Assembly (NCBI GenBank): GCA_029210175.1
Contig: JARGPL010000015.1
Location: forward strand, 186,001-250,000
Reading direction: 5' to 3'
Source of the DNA: Minwuia sp.
Lineage (GTDB): Bacteria > Pseudomonadota > Alphaproteobacteria > Minwuiales > Minwuiaceae
DNA length: 64,000 nt
A model generated the notes under the pieces. That model did not search any database. It saw only the letters and a program-made list of their open reading frames with translations, and was not told the origin of the DNA. Below, piece by piece: positions 14,652 through 21,282 of this stretch. Every line of letters starts with the position of its first letter. The stretch's first letter is position 1. The position numbers were made by a program, and so were the translations under genes.

Positions 14652-15281
14652 ATGATTTTCTACGATTGCGCCACAGCACCCAGCCCGCGCCGCGCCCGCA
14701 TGTTCATTGCGGAAAAGGGGCTCGAGATCGAAACCCGCCAGATCAGCATCGCCGATCGCGAACAGCTCTCGGATGCCTTTCTGGCGATCAATCCGCGCGC
14801 CACGGTGCCGGTGCTGGTGACGGATGAAGGTGACACCCTGACGGAGAACGTCGCCATTGCCACCTATCTGGATGCCCGGTTTCCCGACAGGCCGTTGCTG
14901 GGCACCACGCCCTCGGAAGAGGCGCAGATCATGATGTGGAGTGCGATTGCGGAGGGGCAGGGCGGTGCACCGGTGGCAGAAACCCTGCGCAACAGCAATC
15001 CGGCCATGAAGGGACGCGCATTGCCCGGCCCGGCCAACTTCGAACAGATCCCCGAACTGGCCAATCGTGGCCTGGCGCGGGTCAAGCTGTTCTTCGGAAC
15101 GCTGGACAGGCAGCTGCAGGGCAGGGACTTCCTGACCGGTGACAACTTCACCTACGCCGACATCACCGCGTTCGTGTTCGTGGACTTCGCCCGCATCATC
15201 AAGCAGCGTATCCCGGAAGAGCTGACCGCCGCGACAGACTGGTACGCCCGCATCAAGGCCCGTCCCAGCGCAGGGCTCTGA
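14652..15281 (+). CDS. Glutathione S-transferase family protein
   Basis: The protein is 209 residues from ATG 14652, chosen because GGAGGAAG sits just upstream. A thioredoxin-fold N-terminal domain (about 1-80) shows the cis-proline region ATVPVL and LTENVAIATYLD for glutathione binding. A helical C-terminal domain (about 90-205) includes GDNFTYADITAFVFVDFA, a typical N-capping motif. It is cytoplasmic, with probable detoxification or glutathione-linked chemistry. It ends 33 bases from the convergent dehydratase gene. Confidence 0.88.
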   Translation: MIFYDCATAPSPRRARMFIAEKGLEIETRQISIADREQLSDAFLAINPRATVPVLVTDEGDTLTENVAIATYLDARFPDRPLLGTTPSEEAQIMMWSAIAEGQGGAPVAETLRNSNPAMKGRALPGPANFEQIPELANRGLARVKLFFGTLDRQLQGRDFLTGDNFTYADITAFVFVDFARIIKQRIPEELTAATDWYARIKARPSAGL

Positions 15282-15314: not shown

Positions 15315-17045
15315 CTACAGCACGCATCCATAGTGCGCGCTGGAAACCAGCCGCCGATACTTGCTCAACACCGACCCTTCCGGCACGGCAGAAAGCGCTG
15401 GCGCGGGTAACTGCGCCATGCGCGCCGCCATCTCTTCGGCCGAAATATCCAGGTCAAGCCGACGGGTCCTGGGGTCGATGATGATGGTATCGCCGTTGCG
15501 AACCGCGCCAATCGGGCCGCCCCTTGCGCCTTCCGGACAGATATGCCCGACGAGGATACCGTGGGAGACGCCTGAGAACCGGCCGTCCGTTATCAACGCA
15601 ACGTCCTTGCCCAGACCGCGCCCCTGCAGCTGGATGGTCAGATGCACCATCTCCGGCATGCCGGGTGCGCCAACGGGGCCCACGTTTCGTACGACGACCA
15701 CGTCCCCTGCAACCACGCTTTCGTCGCGTATCGCCGCCATCGCAGCCTGTTCGCTCTCGAATACCTTCGCCGGACCCCGAAACTCGCCATGCTCAAGCGT
15801 CTTGCCCGACAGCTTCAACAGGCAGCTCTCCGGCGCCAGGGAGCCGGACAGGACACTGATATGGTTGCCAGGTGCCGCCAGCGGCCTTGCCACCGGAAAG
15901 ACGACATCCTGGTCAGGCATGTCTTCCGGCAGGGGGACGTCAGCCAGGTTCTCGGCGAGTGTCTTGCCCGTCACTGTCATGACGTCACCGTGCAGCAGCC
16001 CGGCCTCAAGCAAGGCCTTCATCACCACGGGAACGCCGCCGACGTCGTGCAGCGAGACCATGGCATAGGCGCCATGTGGCTGCAGGTTGGCGATCAGTGG
16101 CACCCGCGCGCCGATCCGCCGCATGTCCTCGATGGTGAAGGCCACACCGGCTTCCCGGGCGATGGCCAGAACATGCAGGTACAGGTTGGTTGAACCGCCC
16201 ATCGCATAGGCGGTGGTCACCGCGTTCTCGAAAGCTTCCCGCACCATGATGTCCCGGGGCCGGATACCTTTCTGCATCAGGCCATAGAGCGCCTCGACAC
16301 TGGCCTGAGCCTGGTTCTTGACGTCGTCATGGATATCGCTGGCCGCGTCGTAGTCCGCCGGATGTGACGCGCCACGGGGCAGCATCATGCCAATGGCCTC
16401 GGCGATGCTGCTCATCGTGTTGGCGGTAAACATCGCGCCGCAGGTGCCGCTGCCCGGCATGACGCAGCGTTGCAGGCTCAACAGTTCATCGTCGGAGATG
16501 CGGCCCGCTTCCCGGGCGGCGGAACCTTCGACATAGTCCATGATGGTGAGGTTGTTGCCTTTGCTGGCCCAGGGTTCGAAATCAACCCGGCCCGGGGAAC
16601 TCGTTCCCGGATAGACCACCAGACCGAACGCATTGGTCCGCGCCAGGGGCATCAGGGCGGCAGCGCCGGTCTTGTCGCAGCCCGAAACCACGATCATCGC
16701 ATTGCCATGGTGCGCGTAATGGCCGGTCTCCATGCAGTCCGCCATCAGATCGCGCGACACCAGACTGTAGCCTGCGTTTTCCGTGCCCTGGGTCAGTGCA
16801 TCCGACACCGCCGGTGCCCCGACCAGCAGACCCTGGCCGCCTCTTGCGGAGACTGCATCCACAAGCAGATCGGCAATCCGGCGCACGCGATTGTTGCAGC
16901 GATGCGCGTTGGTATAGGCATTGGCGATGGTGACGACGGCGTTGGTCTGGCCCGCTTCCGAAGGATCGAACCCTGCCGCCCGCAATTCGACGGCGCGCAG
17001 GCCCTGTTTGGAATCGCTCCAGTAGCTCACTGACTTGTCCGGCAT
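15315..17045 (-). CDS. IlvD/Edd family dehydratase
   Basis: The 576-residue protein starts at ATG 17045 with GGAGA 9 bases upstream. Cluster-binding cysteines are visible: HRCNN in the N-terminal part, VVSGCDKTG and [18 protein letters not shown] and the C-terminal [11 protein letters not shown] are also family hallmarks. The family removes water from dihydroxy acids (branched-chain precursors) or sugar acids (gluconate, arabonate, xylonate). The usual N-terminal W-x-E-x-x-PCN segment is replaced by [13 protein letters not shown], so I do not assign IlvD itself. It is more likely a divergent dehydratase of unknown substrate. Confidence 0.83.
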
Positions 17046-17168
17046 TGATGTTCTCCGCAGTTCTGATCCCGTGACACTCAGGGTGCAGCGGCAAACCCGG
17101 TTGTGGCAAGCGTTAGCCGACATCGTCGACCTGATCCGCCTTTCAGCAAGGCTGCGAAGGCCCGGGAC

Positions 17169-17433
17169 GGCATTGTCAGAGCAAATCTGATGTGATCGCG
17201 GTAGGCTTTCGGGATGCGAAATCCTTTCCGCTATTTCAAAGGCTCGCCCGCACATCCGTTGGCGGTGGCATGTGGATGAGGTTTTCGTCCGGGTCAACGG
17301 CGAGCGACGCTATCTCTGGCGGGCCGTGGATCATGAAAGTGAGGCACTGGAAGTCCATGTCACGAAGGTGCGGGATCGCAGCGCTGCGATGGATTTCCTG
17401 AAGCGCGCGTTGAAACGCTTCTGCTCACGTTGA
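17169..17433 (+). mobile_element. IS6-family remnant A (one end plus part of the DDE domain)
   Basis: The left inverted repeat GGCATTGTCAGAGCAAAT at 17169-17186 is followed by the start of a transposase (ATG 17214, MRNPFRYF). The sequence then jumps, out of frame, to the DDE core (RWRWHVDEVFVRV, YLWRAVDHE) and stops near 17433. The right end is missing. Sequence after it to 17597 shows nothing recognisable. It shares its left end and core with remnant C at 20603. It is non-functional. Confidence 0.85.
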
Positions 17434-17597
17434 TCGAAATGGTTCCATGACAATTCTCATGGAAAGAGAGTTGGTGGCCCGCTACGGTTGCAAGGTGCGA
17501 ACCTGCCTCGCAAGCCGCCAACTGATCGCGCAATCAGTCCAGTGACAGTCTGTCGGGCGTCGGATTGTCGATTTCACTGCAAGAGGGAACTTCGAGA

Positions 17598-19061
17598 ATG
17601 ATCAATGACCGAGTACGGCGCCTGACCGGTGCGTTGGCCGCTGCTGGCCTGCTGTCCGTCGCCAACATGGCGTCGGCGCAACAGAATCCGCTTTTCGATG
17701 CCTTTGCCGACGCGCCCGCCATGACGGCCCGGGAGGGAACCTTCTTCCAGATCGTCGCGCCGAACGGCAAGCAGGTATTGGGAGCCGAGCGCAACTACGC
17801 GAATATTCCACAGCAGCGCCTGCGCAACTTCGCCTATGTGAATGTCATGCGCCTGGGTGCGCAGTCCTTCGACAATGTCCCAGAAACCTATCTGCGTGTT
17901 GCCAACGTCAACTGTCCGACAACCTGCTACGAGATTCGTCGGCGTTCTGACGGCGGCGATGCGCTGCTCGCGCTGACCCATCAGGCGTTCACCACGGAAG
18001 AGACCAAGGATGCTGGAGGCAACATCACCCGGCTGACTCTGCCCGCTGGCGAACCGGCCTGGTACAGCATTACCGATCAGTCGCTTATCGGAGAAGCGGA
18101 GATCTACACCAAGACAGCCGTCCTGATGCTTGTTGCCCATCCTTCGGTTCCAAAGCGATATGTCATCCGGGCGTACAGGAATGGCGCGCTGACGGACCAG
18201 GCCCTGCGCAGCACGATGCAGGACAACCTGATCTTCGACTATCAGAAGGTTGTTCGGAACAACTGGTCGGATACCTTCCAGATGAACGCTTTCGATCCTT
18301 CTGACGTCAGGCAGCAGATGAAGCTGAAACAGGCCGTCGGCGATCTTGCCGAACTGAATGTCGCGTTGAAGGACAATGGAGCCGAACAGGTGTCGTTCAC
18401 GCTGACGAACAACAAGGATGTCCGGCTGATTTTCGGCGGAATGCTGTTCAACATGAACGACCGCGATCCTGTCAGTGCCTTTGAGAGCACCGAGGTATTC
18501 CTCGGCTTCGGTACCCGGCTGTTCGAACGTATCGGCAAGAAGGACAGCATGAACCCGAACAGGATCACCTACTTCCCCTGGTCCATCATCGGGCGTCCGG
18601 GACTTGTCTTGGCGGTCCCCGCTGGTGCGACCGCCAGCGGGTGTAATTTGCGCCCCGTCTGGGGCTACCCGCTTTCACCTGAGGCGCAGGGCGGACAATG
18701 GCGGGTGTGCAGGTTCCCGATGGCTACAGTCGCCGAGCTTGCCTACGAATACCGGTTCCGCAGCGCTTCGGCGGATCACATGACGTGGATTGCTGAAGTA
18801 AGACCAGATGGCGAAACGGCGTTCCGCAAGATGGGTGAGGTCACGTTCACAAAGGCCATGAAGATCTACGGAGATGCTTCCGTTGCGGTCTCCACCTCCA
18901 TGACATCTGGTTGTGCCGACATGCCGCCGCCGAGTCTGACGGTTGCAGACGTAACCACGGCCAGCGGGATTGGAACCGCCGATCTCAAGGGGTTCAATTT
19001 CGGGCCCTGTGAACTGTCTGTGCACATCGTGAATGACACGGTGTTCGATTTCGGGAAATGA
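17598..19061 (+). CDS. Secreted protein of unknown function, about 54 kDa
   Basis: The 487-residue protein starts at ATG 17598 with a signal peptide (RLTGALAAAGLLSVANMASA, cut before QQNP), so it is exported. I recognise no domain. Visible features are six cysteines after the signal (NCPTTCYEI, SGCNLRPVWG, WRVCRFP, SGCADMPP, FGPCELSV), many aromatic beta-strand-like segments and no membrane anchor. It may be a periplasmic or secreted beta-rich protein. It stands alone between two IS6 remnants and is followed by two hairpins. This suggests an acquired or strain-variable gene. Codon use looks ordinary for the window. Confidence 0.75.
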   Translation: MINDRVRRLTGALAAAGLLSVANMASAQQNPLFDAFADAPAMTAREGTFFQIVAPNGKQVLGAERNYANIPQQRLRNFAYVNVMRLGAQSFDNVPETYLRVANVNCPTTCYEIRRRSDGGDALLALTHQAFTTEETKDAGGNITRLTLPAGEPAWYSITDQSLIGEAEIYTKTAVLMLVAHPSVPKRYVIRAYRNGALTDQALRSTMQDNLIFDYQKVVRNNWSDTFQMNAFDPSDVRQQMKLKQAVGDLAELNVALKDNGAEQVSFTLTNNKDVRLIFGGMLFNMNDRDPVSAFESTEVFLGFGTRLFERIGKKDSMNPNRITYFPWSIIGRPGLVLAVPAGATASGCNLRPVWGYPLSPEAQGGQWRVCRFPMATVAELAYEYRFRSASADHMTWIAEVRPDGETAFRKMGEVTFTKAMKIYGDASVAVSTSMTSGCADMPPPSLTVADVTTASGIGTADLKGFNFGPCELSVHIVNDTVFDFGK

Positions 19062-19088
19062 TCCCGAGCCCATGGTTTTTGGTAAGAG

Positions 19089-19117
19089 CGCGGGTCGGCA
19101 GGCACGGTCGGCCCGCG
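19089..19117 (+). terminator. Hairpin after the secreted orphan gene
   Basis: An 11-base stem (19089-19099 with 19107-19117, two G-T pairs) encloses a 7-base loop, 27 bases after the stop codon. A short T-containing stretch follows. It is consistent with a terminator for the 17598-19061 gene. Confidence 0.5.
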
Positions 19118-19149
19118 TCATTTCAGGAGTGGTCGCTGGCTGAACGGGA

Positions 19150-19177
19150 TCGGGCCCTGCCATTCGACAGGGCCCGA
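19150..19177. terminator. Second perfect hairpin, just left of IS remnant B
   Basis: TCGGGCCCTG (19150-19159) and CAGGGCCCGA (19168-19177) pair perfectly over 10 bases with an 8-base loop. There is no T tract. It may be a bidirectional terminator or a structural element flanking the IS end at 19183. Confidence 0.45.
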
Positions 19178-19182
19178 CCGAA

Positions 19183-19525
19183 GGCATTGTCAGAGCGAAT
19201 GCGGAGCGGATTCAGCCCGTTCCCGACAAGTTGGGCGGATGCTTAACCCTTTCCGCTATTTGAACAACCGGGCGGAAAATTCCCACCAGCCATTCCGACG
19301 ACGAGAGCGATCCATGCAACGTTTCCGAAGCAATGTCACGCTTCAGAAGTTGGTCTCCATTCACACTGCGATCCATAATCAATCCAACGGCGATCGCCAT
19401 CTCATCCGTCGGATCGACTTCAGGCTGCGCCGTGATGTGGCGCATGCTGAATGGCGACAATTGGCGATCGGACCTCTGCCAGATATGGCTCTGCCGCGCT
19501 TGGGCCAGATTGCTCTGACAATGCC
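19183..19525 (+). mobile_element. IS6-family remnant B, both ends present, internal deletion
   Basis: The left repeat GGCATTGTCAGAGCGAAT (19183-19200) and the right repeat ATTGCTCTGACAATGCC (19509-19525) are inverted copies. Between them, the first residues of a transposase (MLNPFRYL, from about 19239) are joined to its C-terminal part (NNRAENSHQPFRRRE), which includes the catalytic Glu. Most of the DDE domain is deleted. At 343 bp it resembles a MITE-like deletion derivative. No flanking direct repeat is visible. Confidence 0.85.
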
Positions 19526-19651
19526 CCATCATGGCCTCCTTGCCTCAAAATTGGGAAAGAAGGCGTCTATGATTCCAGGGACTACTCAGTCAGCCGTTCG
19601 CCTGTACTTTCAGGAAACTCCAAGCGTCACTCACCCTGTCTCTGGCTCAGT

Positions 19652-19945
19652 TCAGGCGAGGTGAGCATCCGGGTCGAGACCTGAAGCTCGTGCGGTCTCG
19701 ACTATATCGTCCCAGGCTTGACGCGCCAGAGGCAGGCCGCTGGCGAGACGTTCGGCCATCAGCCGCCGTTCCGGCTCACCCGGAACCAGAATTTCCCCGC
19801 CGGGCGTGGTCGGTACTGCGGATTTCACAAACGCCAGGTAGTCCAGAACTTCCGCTGCGAAACTGTCCCCCATTTCCCGCGGCGAGCCCTCCATTGCCTT
19901 CAGGTCTATGTAGAACGACAGCATGCCATTGCACTGAGCCCATTG
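19652..19945 (-). pseudogene. C-terminal fragment of a YbiC-like (Ldh2 family) hydroxycarboxylate dehydrogenase
   Basis: A minus-strand frame encodes NGMLSFYIDLKAME and then GGEILVPGEPERRLMAERLA, the C-terminal end of malate/L-lactate/hydroxycarboxylate dehydrogenases of the Ldh2 type. Only about 95 of about 350 residues are left. The frame continues to 20065, but residues upstream of NGMLSF do not resemble the family. It lacks the catalytic and NAD-binding parts, so it should be inactive. It lies between IS remnants B and C, consistent with IS-driven deletion. Confidence 0.65.
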
Positions 19946-20058
19946 TCTGGACCGTCGGCATTCGCTCATCTGGTGGCAGATATGAGCCGGAAGGTCATGG
20001 GCGTGATCACGGCCCACCAACAGCGCGAAGGTACCGAGTTTCTCGCGGCAAAGAACAT

Positions 20059-20072
20059 TTGACATAAATCAA
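20059..20072. promoter_or_regulatory. FNR/FixK-type box upstream of uspA
   Basis: TTGACATAAATCAA matches the FNR/Anr/FixK consensus TTGAT-N4-ATCAA with one mismatch. It lies 69 bases before the UspA ATG in an AT-rich stretch, at a plausible activation distance. It would link the gene to low oxygen. The regulator is not in the window. Confidence 0.6.
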
Positions 20073-20141
20073 ATATTTTCTGAGGTGGCAAGTGCAGGAT
20101 TGCCTACCAACATCTGAGGCAATTGGTTTGGAGATGGTGTC

Positions 20142-20549
20142 ATGTATAAGCGAATTCTTGTGCCTGTTATCCTTGATGAACAACACGATACTCAAGCTTC
20201 TTTTATGGCGGCCCGTATCCTGGCAGTTGAAGGAGCGAAATTTTCGGTGATCCATGTGATGGAATTTATTCCAGCTTATGTCACCGCTGAAATTCCCGAT
20301 GAAGTGTTGATACGGACACGCGAGAAGGTTGAAAGTTCTTTGGTGCAATCTGCAAAGGCCTTGCCAAATGCAGAAACAAAGTTGATATCGGGACATGCTG
20401 GAAGAGCCATCGTGGATTACGCTAGCGAAAACGATATCGATTGCATCGTCATGGCATCGCACTGGCCGGGCGTCAGCGACTTTTTTCTGGGATCCACCGC
20501 ATCCATGGTTGTGCGCCACGCCAAATGCTCGGTACATATTATCCGATAG
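20142..20549 (+). CDS. Universal stress protein UspA family, single domain
   Basis: The 135-residue Usp domain begins MYKRILVPVILDE. It has the ATP-binding pattern near the end (GHAGRAIVDY, VMASHWPG, then GSTASMVVRHAKCSVHIIR). Such cytoplasmic proteins aid survival under stress or energy limitation. Base composition is clearly AT-richer than the flanking genes, and it sits between IS6 remnants, so recent transfer is likely. The FNR-like box upstream suggests induction at low oxygen. Confidence 0.9.
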   Translation: MYKRILVPVILDEQHDTQASFMAARILAVEGAKFSVIHVMEFIPAYVTAEIPDEVLIRTREKVESSLVQSAKALPNAETKLISGHAGRAIVDYASENDIDCIVMASHWPGVSDFFLGSTASMVVRHAKCSVHIIR

Positions 20550-20602
20550 TGGCCAACATTACTTGTAAAGACGCATCATGAAAGTGAGCGATCCTACTGC
20601 GA

Positions 20603-21179
20603 GGCATTGTCAGAGCAAATTCGGAGCGGATCCAGTCCGTTCCCGGTAAGCTGGGCGGATGCGTAATCCTTTCCACTATTTCAATAGCGCGCCGGCGGTG
20701 ATCCGCATTGCGGTCCTGCTTTACATCCGGTTCCCGCTGTCGCTGCGCCAGGTCGAAGGCCTGCTGCACGAAAGGGGCATCGACATCAGTCATGAGACCG
20801 TCCGGTTCTGGTGGAACCGCTTCGGACCCATCTTCGCCGCCGAACTTCGAAAACGGCAACGGAGAACGGCTCGCCCGCACATCCGTTGGCGGTGGCACGT
20901 GGATGAGGTTTTCGTCCGGGTCAACGGCGAGCGGCGCTATCTCTGGCGGGCCGTTGGTCATGACGGTGAGGGACTGGAATTCCATGTCACGAAGACGCGG
21001 GATCGCAGGGCTGCGCCGGATTTCCTCAGGCGGGTGATGAAACGCTTCTGCTCACCACGCACCATCGCCACCGACCGCCTGCGTTCTTACAGCGGCTCTT
21101 GCTGAACGGCGACAGTTGGCAATCCGACCTCACCCGGATACAGCTCTGCTGCGGCGGGGTTGGATTGCTCTGACAATGC
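20603..21179 (+). mobile_element. IS6-family remnant C, both ends present, truncated transposase
   Basis: The left repeat GGCATTGTCAGAGCAAAT (20603-20620) and the right repeat ATTGCTCTGACAATGC (21164-21179) bound a 577-bp element. The frame from ATG 20659 to 21105 encodes 148 residues: an N-terminal helix-turn-helix part (ISHETVRFWWNRFG) and the first two catalytic Asp residues (HVDEVFVRV, ATDRLRSY). The region with the catalytic Glu is deleted and the frame ends early. Family transposases are about 230-240 residues, so it cannot transpose alone. No 8-bp target duplication is visible. It ends 27 bases from tRNA-Val. Confidence 0.88.
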
Positions 21180-21206
21180 TGGAACTCGGGTTCGAAGGAG
21201 AAGGAA

Positions 21207-21282
21207 TGGTGGGCGATACTGGACTTGAACCAGTGACCCCTGCGATGTGAACACAGTGCTCTACCAGCTGAGCTAATCGCCC
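21207..21282 (-). tRNA. tRNA-Val, anticodon CAC
   Basis: The reverse strand folds into a standard cloverleaf: acceptor GGGCGAT/ATCGCCC, D arm GCTC/GAGC, anticodon stem CTGTG/CGCAG with loop TTCACAT (anticodon CAC), and T arm ACTGG/CCAGT with TTCAAGT. CCA is encoded at 21207-21209. Its 3' end faces the IS-rich patch, the usual side for integrations. Confidence 0.95.

Follow-up and report, generated by a model that had tools for sequence, protein, structure and literature searches.

What left three differently broken copies of one family of insertion sequences (IS) within about 4 kb of a bacterial chromosome, the last of them 26 bp from a tRNA gene? The window analysed here is a stretch of 64,000 nucleotides from Minwuia sp. 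(assembly GCA_029210175.1, contig JARGPL010000015.1, positions 186,001 to 250,000), and the copies in question are remnants A, B and C of the IS6 family, located beside a tRNA-Val gene. Our reading, to which we give a probability of roughly 0.6, is that they are inert IS6 copies left where deletions ended, within an island that is eroding beside tRNA-Val at its 3' end. The feature is real and is an ordinary kind of genome decay, its readable deletion history being the only surprise. The comparison set comprises seven genomes of the genus: the window's own genome (G000, a 4.09 Mb assembly in 43 contigs) and six sister genomes (G001 to G006). The central features are listed below; the remnants were delimited by repeat search, by Pfam and NCBIfam models and by mapping on full-length relatives.

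17169..17431 (end approximate), plus strand: IS6 remnant A
19183..19525, plus strand: IS6 remnant B, 343 bp
20603..21180, plus strand: IS6 remnant C
21181..21206, no strand: 26-bp spacer from the right end of C to tRNA-Val (3' end); resembles the flank on the block side in sister genomes
21207..21282, minus strand: tRNA-Val (CAC)

To the right of tRNA-Val lie two genes which we take to be fabD and fabG.

A, B and C are IS6-family remnants that share a terminal repeat and that each retain a different part of the transposase. Both points had been made in an initial annotation drawn from the letters of the window; the first is confirmed by end search, repeat search and family models, the second by the mapping. 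An 18-base IS6 end, with up to three mismatches allowed, occurs five times in the window, always at the remnants, while dinucleotide shuffles give an average of 0.02 occurrences. The terminal GGCATTGTCAGAGC, with GG first and G seventh, is present at the left ends of A, B and C and at the right end of B. Both ends are kept in B and C, as had also been proposed, but the right tip of C has one change (AATGCT, 21180). In the repeat search, A and C align over 191 nucleotides at 90% and, in their left parts, over 76 nucleotides at 72%; B and C align at both ends, over 94 nucleotides at 83% and 86 nucleotides at 79%. All three score above the cut-off of the Pfam model DDE_Tnp_IS240. With the NCBIfam model transpos_IS6 (NF033587, cut-off 125) only C does so, at 143.8 bits, and A (60.6) and B (25.6) remain below it because they are truncated.

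When mapped on full-length relatives, remnant A consists of the left 83 bp and a DDE segment (17238–17428); its transposase starts at the ATG at 17214, around 180 bp are deleted inside it and its right end is missing. Remnant B is made up of the left 84 bp and the last 266 bp, with around 465 bp deleted inside, so that the transposase start is joined in frame to the glutamate-containing C terminus NNRAENSHQPFR. Remnant C contains the first 487 bp and the last 88 bp, with around 230 bp deleted; both catalytic aspartates are retained and the glutamate is lost. The TGA that closes the transposases of the closed sister genome G003 is, in the alignment, replaced by CGG in B and by CGA in C. The inner deletions of A and B coincide with short repeats, the overlap against G003 copies being 14 bp for A and 7 bp for B; that of C does not. 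The glutamate motif reads ENSHQPFR in B and in the G003 copy G003_3720 and ENSYQPFR in the other two open copies of G003; the segment is missing in A and C.

A search of the 43-contig draft of G000 with the IS6 model did not find an intact transposase: it gives A, B, C and one weak match on contig C23 (E 0.0026). The DNA of C was found in G000 only at the places of A, B and C (best 40 of 51 candidates scored). The only further IS6 place found in this genome, at C20:148598, retains 82 bp from the start of the element (83%), so a search for ends, as the initial annotation had suggested, adds one left end and no intact copy. No strong partial match was seen at a contig end of G000, though the draft may hide an intact copy. 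The IS6 model matches at E 1e-10 or better in five of the seven genomes, G000 included. G003 contains three open 232-amino acid (aa) copies, with lengths of 797, 808 and 809 bp and one open reading frame (ORF) each, and the copies of G001 and G006 each have an internal stop. The fear that the remnants might be fossils with no full-length relative is thus not realised at the level of the genus.

The coding segments that remain have the appearance of dead genes. The ratio of non-synonymous to synonymous substitution rates (dN/dS) is 0.87 between A and C and 0.39–0.68 between A, B or C and the G003 copies, a trend of relaxed constraint over short segments of 63–143 codons. Between open G003 copies the ratio is 0.19 and 0.22, and for G003_3720 against G001, G006 and an outgroup it is 0.07–0.12. 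Whether the remnants share one parent, as the initial annotation had asked, receives a divided answer. The tree of the DDE segment separates A and C from the remaining 13 sequences (ultrafast bootstrap 100%), and four positions have a letter common to both that no other aligned copy of the genus carries. The left end of A is of another subtype, being nearest to G003_3671 (89%), while the left ends of B and C are nearest to G003_3720; the left-end tree, from which G003_3671 was omitted, is weakly supported. B, which is 79–83% like C and has no overlap with A, cannot be tied in. The idea of one parent is therefore partly right: A and C have a common source, their left ends having been exchanged, and B is separate.

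A first sign of lost DNA is seen beside tRNA-Val. Between this gene and an IS6 copy, G003 carries a block of 4.9 kb with genes for a terminase, a DUF2924 protein and a large serine recombinase (PF00239 and PF07508). The block is present at the tRNA-Val 3' end in four of the six sister genomes (G001, G003, G006 and G004): in G001 and G006 its recombinase end is at tRNA-Val, and in G004 its last part is, cut by the contig end. A 2-kb piece of the block occurs in G005 on a different contig. No match to the block at E 1e-8 was found in G000 (40 of 89 first-look candidates scored) or in G002 (40 of 103). The block occurs twice in G003 (L089:14144–17614 and L092:4879–8349), around 49 kb apart, the second copy being partial and each having a directly oriented IS6 on its left; at the end of the outer copy stands TGGTGG, similar to the tRNA 3' end.

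In the window, the 26-bp spacer between C and tRNA-Val is like the flank on the block side of the sister genomes: identity is 19 of 26 with G003, 18 with G001, 16 with G006, 14 with G004 and 18 with the second G003 block, but only 7 with G002. This bears on the plainest account, that C merely inserted 26 bp from tRNA-Val in a genome that never had a block there. G002, without block and without IS6, lends it some credit, but its flank is the one that the spacer does not resemble, and no 8-bp duplication is found at C, so we regard this account as quite unlikely.

Abutting junctions are found at other IS6 right ends. In G001, the IS6 right end lies at 14962 and the abutting block reaches to 14964. 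In G003, the second block runs from 3674143, directly next to an IS6 right end at 3674142, and the depth differs from that in G001. Beyond the G001 IS6 copy (C54:19123–19274), the initial 152 bp of the G003 block are also present, so DNA of other origin lies within that G001 junction. In the window, an IS3-family element meets the right end of B with its own left end, cut at codon 2–3 of orfA, and leaves the following stub.

19526..19590, minus strand: left-end stub of an IS3-family element, around 65 bp, cut at the right end of B after the first orfA codons

Locus L257 of G005 has the complete orfA of that element (PF01527). The IS3 stretch held in L257, which is itself broken, has no match to the left of B.

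Target duplications are missing from the copies tested. Identical 8-bp flanks were found in none of the five two-ended copies tested (B, C and three of G003), a count that omits four further copies of G001 and G006 with ends missing or misplaced; of the 8 flanking bases, 0 are alike for C, 3 for B and 1, 3 and 5 for the G003 copies. Such loss is expected after intramolecular replicative transposition in cis, which the review PMC7986276 describes as deleting the DNA between element and target, with loss of the flanking repeats.

The initial annotation had proposed that B and C could still be moved in trans, like miniature inverted-repeat transposable elements (MITEs). Retention of both ends fits such non-autonomous elements, moved now or formerly, and PMC7986276 lists two MITEs of the IS6 family, 227 and 336 bp long. 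However, there is no second copy of the segment pair of B or of C among the matches in the seven genomes, no target duplication and no intact transposase found in G000. A MITE would combine both ends and lack of a transposase with dispersed, duplication-flanked copies, which B and C do not show, and we consider their mobility in trans highly improbable. A 75-bp miniature with two IS6 left-type ends is found at L091:9117–9191, L101:7100–7174 and L105:386–460, inside a longer repeat common to G003 and G001. These miniatures (two in G003, one in G001) were considered as dispersed MITEs and rejected, since their outer flanks are alike and they have thus been copied within the larger repeat. A fourth miniature in G003, of 74 bp, is bounded by two ends of the right type, and its flanks agree at none of 8 bases.

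According to our preferred reading, deletion by IS6, the copies would have arrived once the species had separated from its sequenced relatives. The likeness of C to a G003 copy is 92%, against 79–81% for the neighbouring host DNA on the fabD side, and this argues for a late arrival. By intramolecular replicative transposition in cis, active copies would then have connected their right ends with new targets, each event deleting the DNA between element and target and producing no 8-bp duplication. In the case of C, all but 26 bp of the way to tRNA-Val would have been cleared of the serine-recombinase block, and in the case of B the IS3-family element would have gone except for 65 bp. Later, different inner pieces would have been lost from the three copies, at short repeats in A and B. 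The remnants, the failure to find the block, the abutting junctions, the lack of duplications and the relaxed constraint are observed; that the transposase made the junctions, that the copies arrived late and that events took this order is inferred.

Orientation can be explained in more than one way. A, B and C all lie on the plus strand, separated by unrelated DNA, and in 13 of the 14 directional IS6 pieces within 68 kb the right end faces tRNA-Val. The tally is taken from whole-genome searches (three pieces in G000, seven in G003, two in G001:C54 and two in G006), and the pieces are not independent events, because some may have been copied together. It omits a miniature of G003 with left-type ends on both sides (3709116), a 17-bp end at G003 3681471 and two G006 matches from a regional search, both of which face tRNA-Val. 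A single orientation is also what homologous recombination between directly repeated IS6 copies would call for, the intervening DNA being removed and single copies with mixed flanks left behind. Exchange between copies would likewise give the left-end subtype of A, which differs from that of C though their DDE segments group. Recombination, however, requires an earlier copy already 26 bp from tRNA-Val, and the three different block junctions (G000, G001 and the second G003 block) would require three earlier insertions; we hold it to be rather unlikely.

Several observations weigh against deletion by IS6 transposition. The pre-deletion state was not found in this species, so the deletion is deduced, and recombination between direct copies would leave identical junctions. 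The conserved histidine of the family reads tyrosine in two of the three open G003 copies, which makes present activity doubtful even in G003, and the flanks of one G003 copy agree at 5 of 8 bases. The absence of the block from G000 and G002 was judged on the 40 of 89 and 40 of 103 first-look candidates that were scored; G002, lacking both block and IS6, indicates that its absence needs no IS6; and in G004 (26 matches) and G006 (16 matches) the block is a repeated family not bound to this tRNA-Val alone. The match of the 26-bp spacer is short, and in G006 the distance between the IS6 copy and the block is 5 kb, with the copy facing the other way. The wider proposal that, throughout the genus, IS6 has been a repeated one-sided eraser at tRNA-Val, with right ends cutting islands to different depths, locking them by removal of the recombinase and leaving nested deletion endpoints, is put forward as a doubtful, if possible, extension.

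The DNA around the remnants contains the following further features.

15315..17047, minus strand: dehydratase gene to the left of A
17598..19061, plus strand: 487-aa ORF between A and B
19652..19943, minus strand: C-terminal fragment of an Ldh_2 (malate/L-lactate dehydrogenase) gene (Pfam 34.8 bits, cut-off 38.8)
20142..20549, plus strand: universal stress protein gene (usp) between B and C

The dehydratase gene, which we take to be ilvD-like, has a long DNA match in G005 alone; matches in the other sister genomes are short and weak. The 487-aa ORF begins like a signal peptide and has no match in Pfam, PHROGs or the Protein Data Bank (PDB), and in NCBIfam only one at E 0.07; 59 other genomes contain a single weak match (E 4.3e-4). 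The Ldh_2 fragment matches a 427-aa ORF of G001 over 92 residues at 93%. Where it breaks off, a 30-bp stretch (TTGCACTGAGCCCAT...) is located at 19929–19958, which recurs behind the broken IS3 of G005 (L257:956–985) and is perhaps the end of a third mobile element. Upstream of usp, TTGACATAAATCAA at 20059–20072 resembles what we take to be an FNR/Anr-type motif and is a candidate site.

These segments invite comparison with a fossil IS26-like array, in which translocatable units (the 487-aa ORF; Ldh_2 and usp) would have joined a resident IS6 to give a direct array of A, cargo, B, cargo and C. The single orientation and the unrelated DNA between copies agree with this, and such IS26 arrays, with loss of flanking repeats, are described in PMC7986276. 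On the other hand, B and C are only 79–83% alike, the left-end subtypes differ and the 487-aa ORF is not found elsewhere in G000. An array origin is therefore unlikely, though it may coexist with deletion by IS6.

Parts of the window between 1 and 14560 are syntenic with G003 at 0.46–0.48 Mb, and tRNA-Val and fabD are at 3.73 Mb in G003. The left and right sides of the window are thus far apart in G003, which places the remnants near a synteny break. A chromosome break by IS6 is not claimed: contig C153 of G005 also runs from the same left flank into island-type DNA, and with a similar join there, the join may predate the IS6 copies. A reciprocal breakpoint at the solo IS6 end of G000:C20 was considered and rejected, the surrounding 57 kb being without match to the compared sister stretches (E 1e-10, 150 bp). 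A tyrosine integrase at tRNA-Val was likewise rejected, with no PF00589 on the tRNA contigs of the drafts G000, G001, G002 and G004, nor within 400 kb of the gene in the closed genomes G003 and G006. As to attachment repeats, the tRNA 3' end together with its flank has matches in the relatives that are all short and weak.

A limited literature search revealed no work on Minwuia insertion sequences, nor on alphaproteobacterial serine-recombinase genomic islands at tRNA-Val. Among known systems, the IS6/IS26 family is the closest. Its members are 700–890 bp long with one transposase gene (PMC7986276) and have inverted ends of around 14 bp with GG first and G seventh, and E-DH---K or E-SH---R around the catalytic glutamate (PMC6807381). 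The copies described here belong to it by family model, by inverted ends with GG and the seventh G, by the length (797–809 bp) and single gene of the G003 copies and by the glutamate motif, E-SH---R in B and one G003 copy; the missing 8-bp duplications would fit intramolecular transposition. Unlike active members, the window copies are dead by internal deletion, and the genes between them are not resistance genes. Directly oriented copies with unrelated segments between them are reminiscent of IS26 arrays and translocatable units, but the window copies are diverged, not identical. B is similar to the IS6-family MITEs MITEBth2 and MITEHarch3 (PMC6807381) in having both ends, no whole transposase and a similar size, but differs from them as a single copy that still has transposase segments and no target duplication. 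The sister genomes have a large serine recombinase at this tRNA-Val 3' end, like other tRNA-associated islands; the window's genome departs from these, the block not being found in it. The IS6/IS26 work cited here mostly concerns resistance genes of clinical bacteria; here, similar junctions are found on an alphaproteobacterial chromosome, where species can be compared at a single tRNA gene, and their deletion endpoints may form a natural series. The case also suggests that several partial transposases in a row are best understood as scars left by lost DNA rather than as pieces from which an element could be rebuilt.

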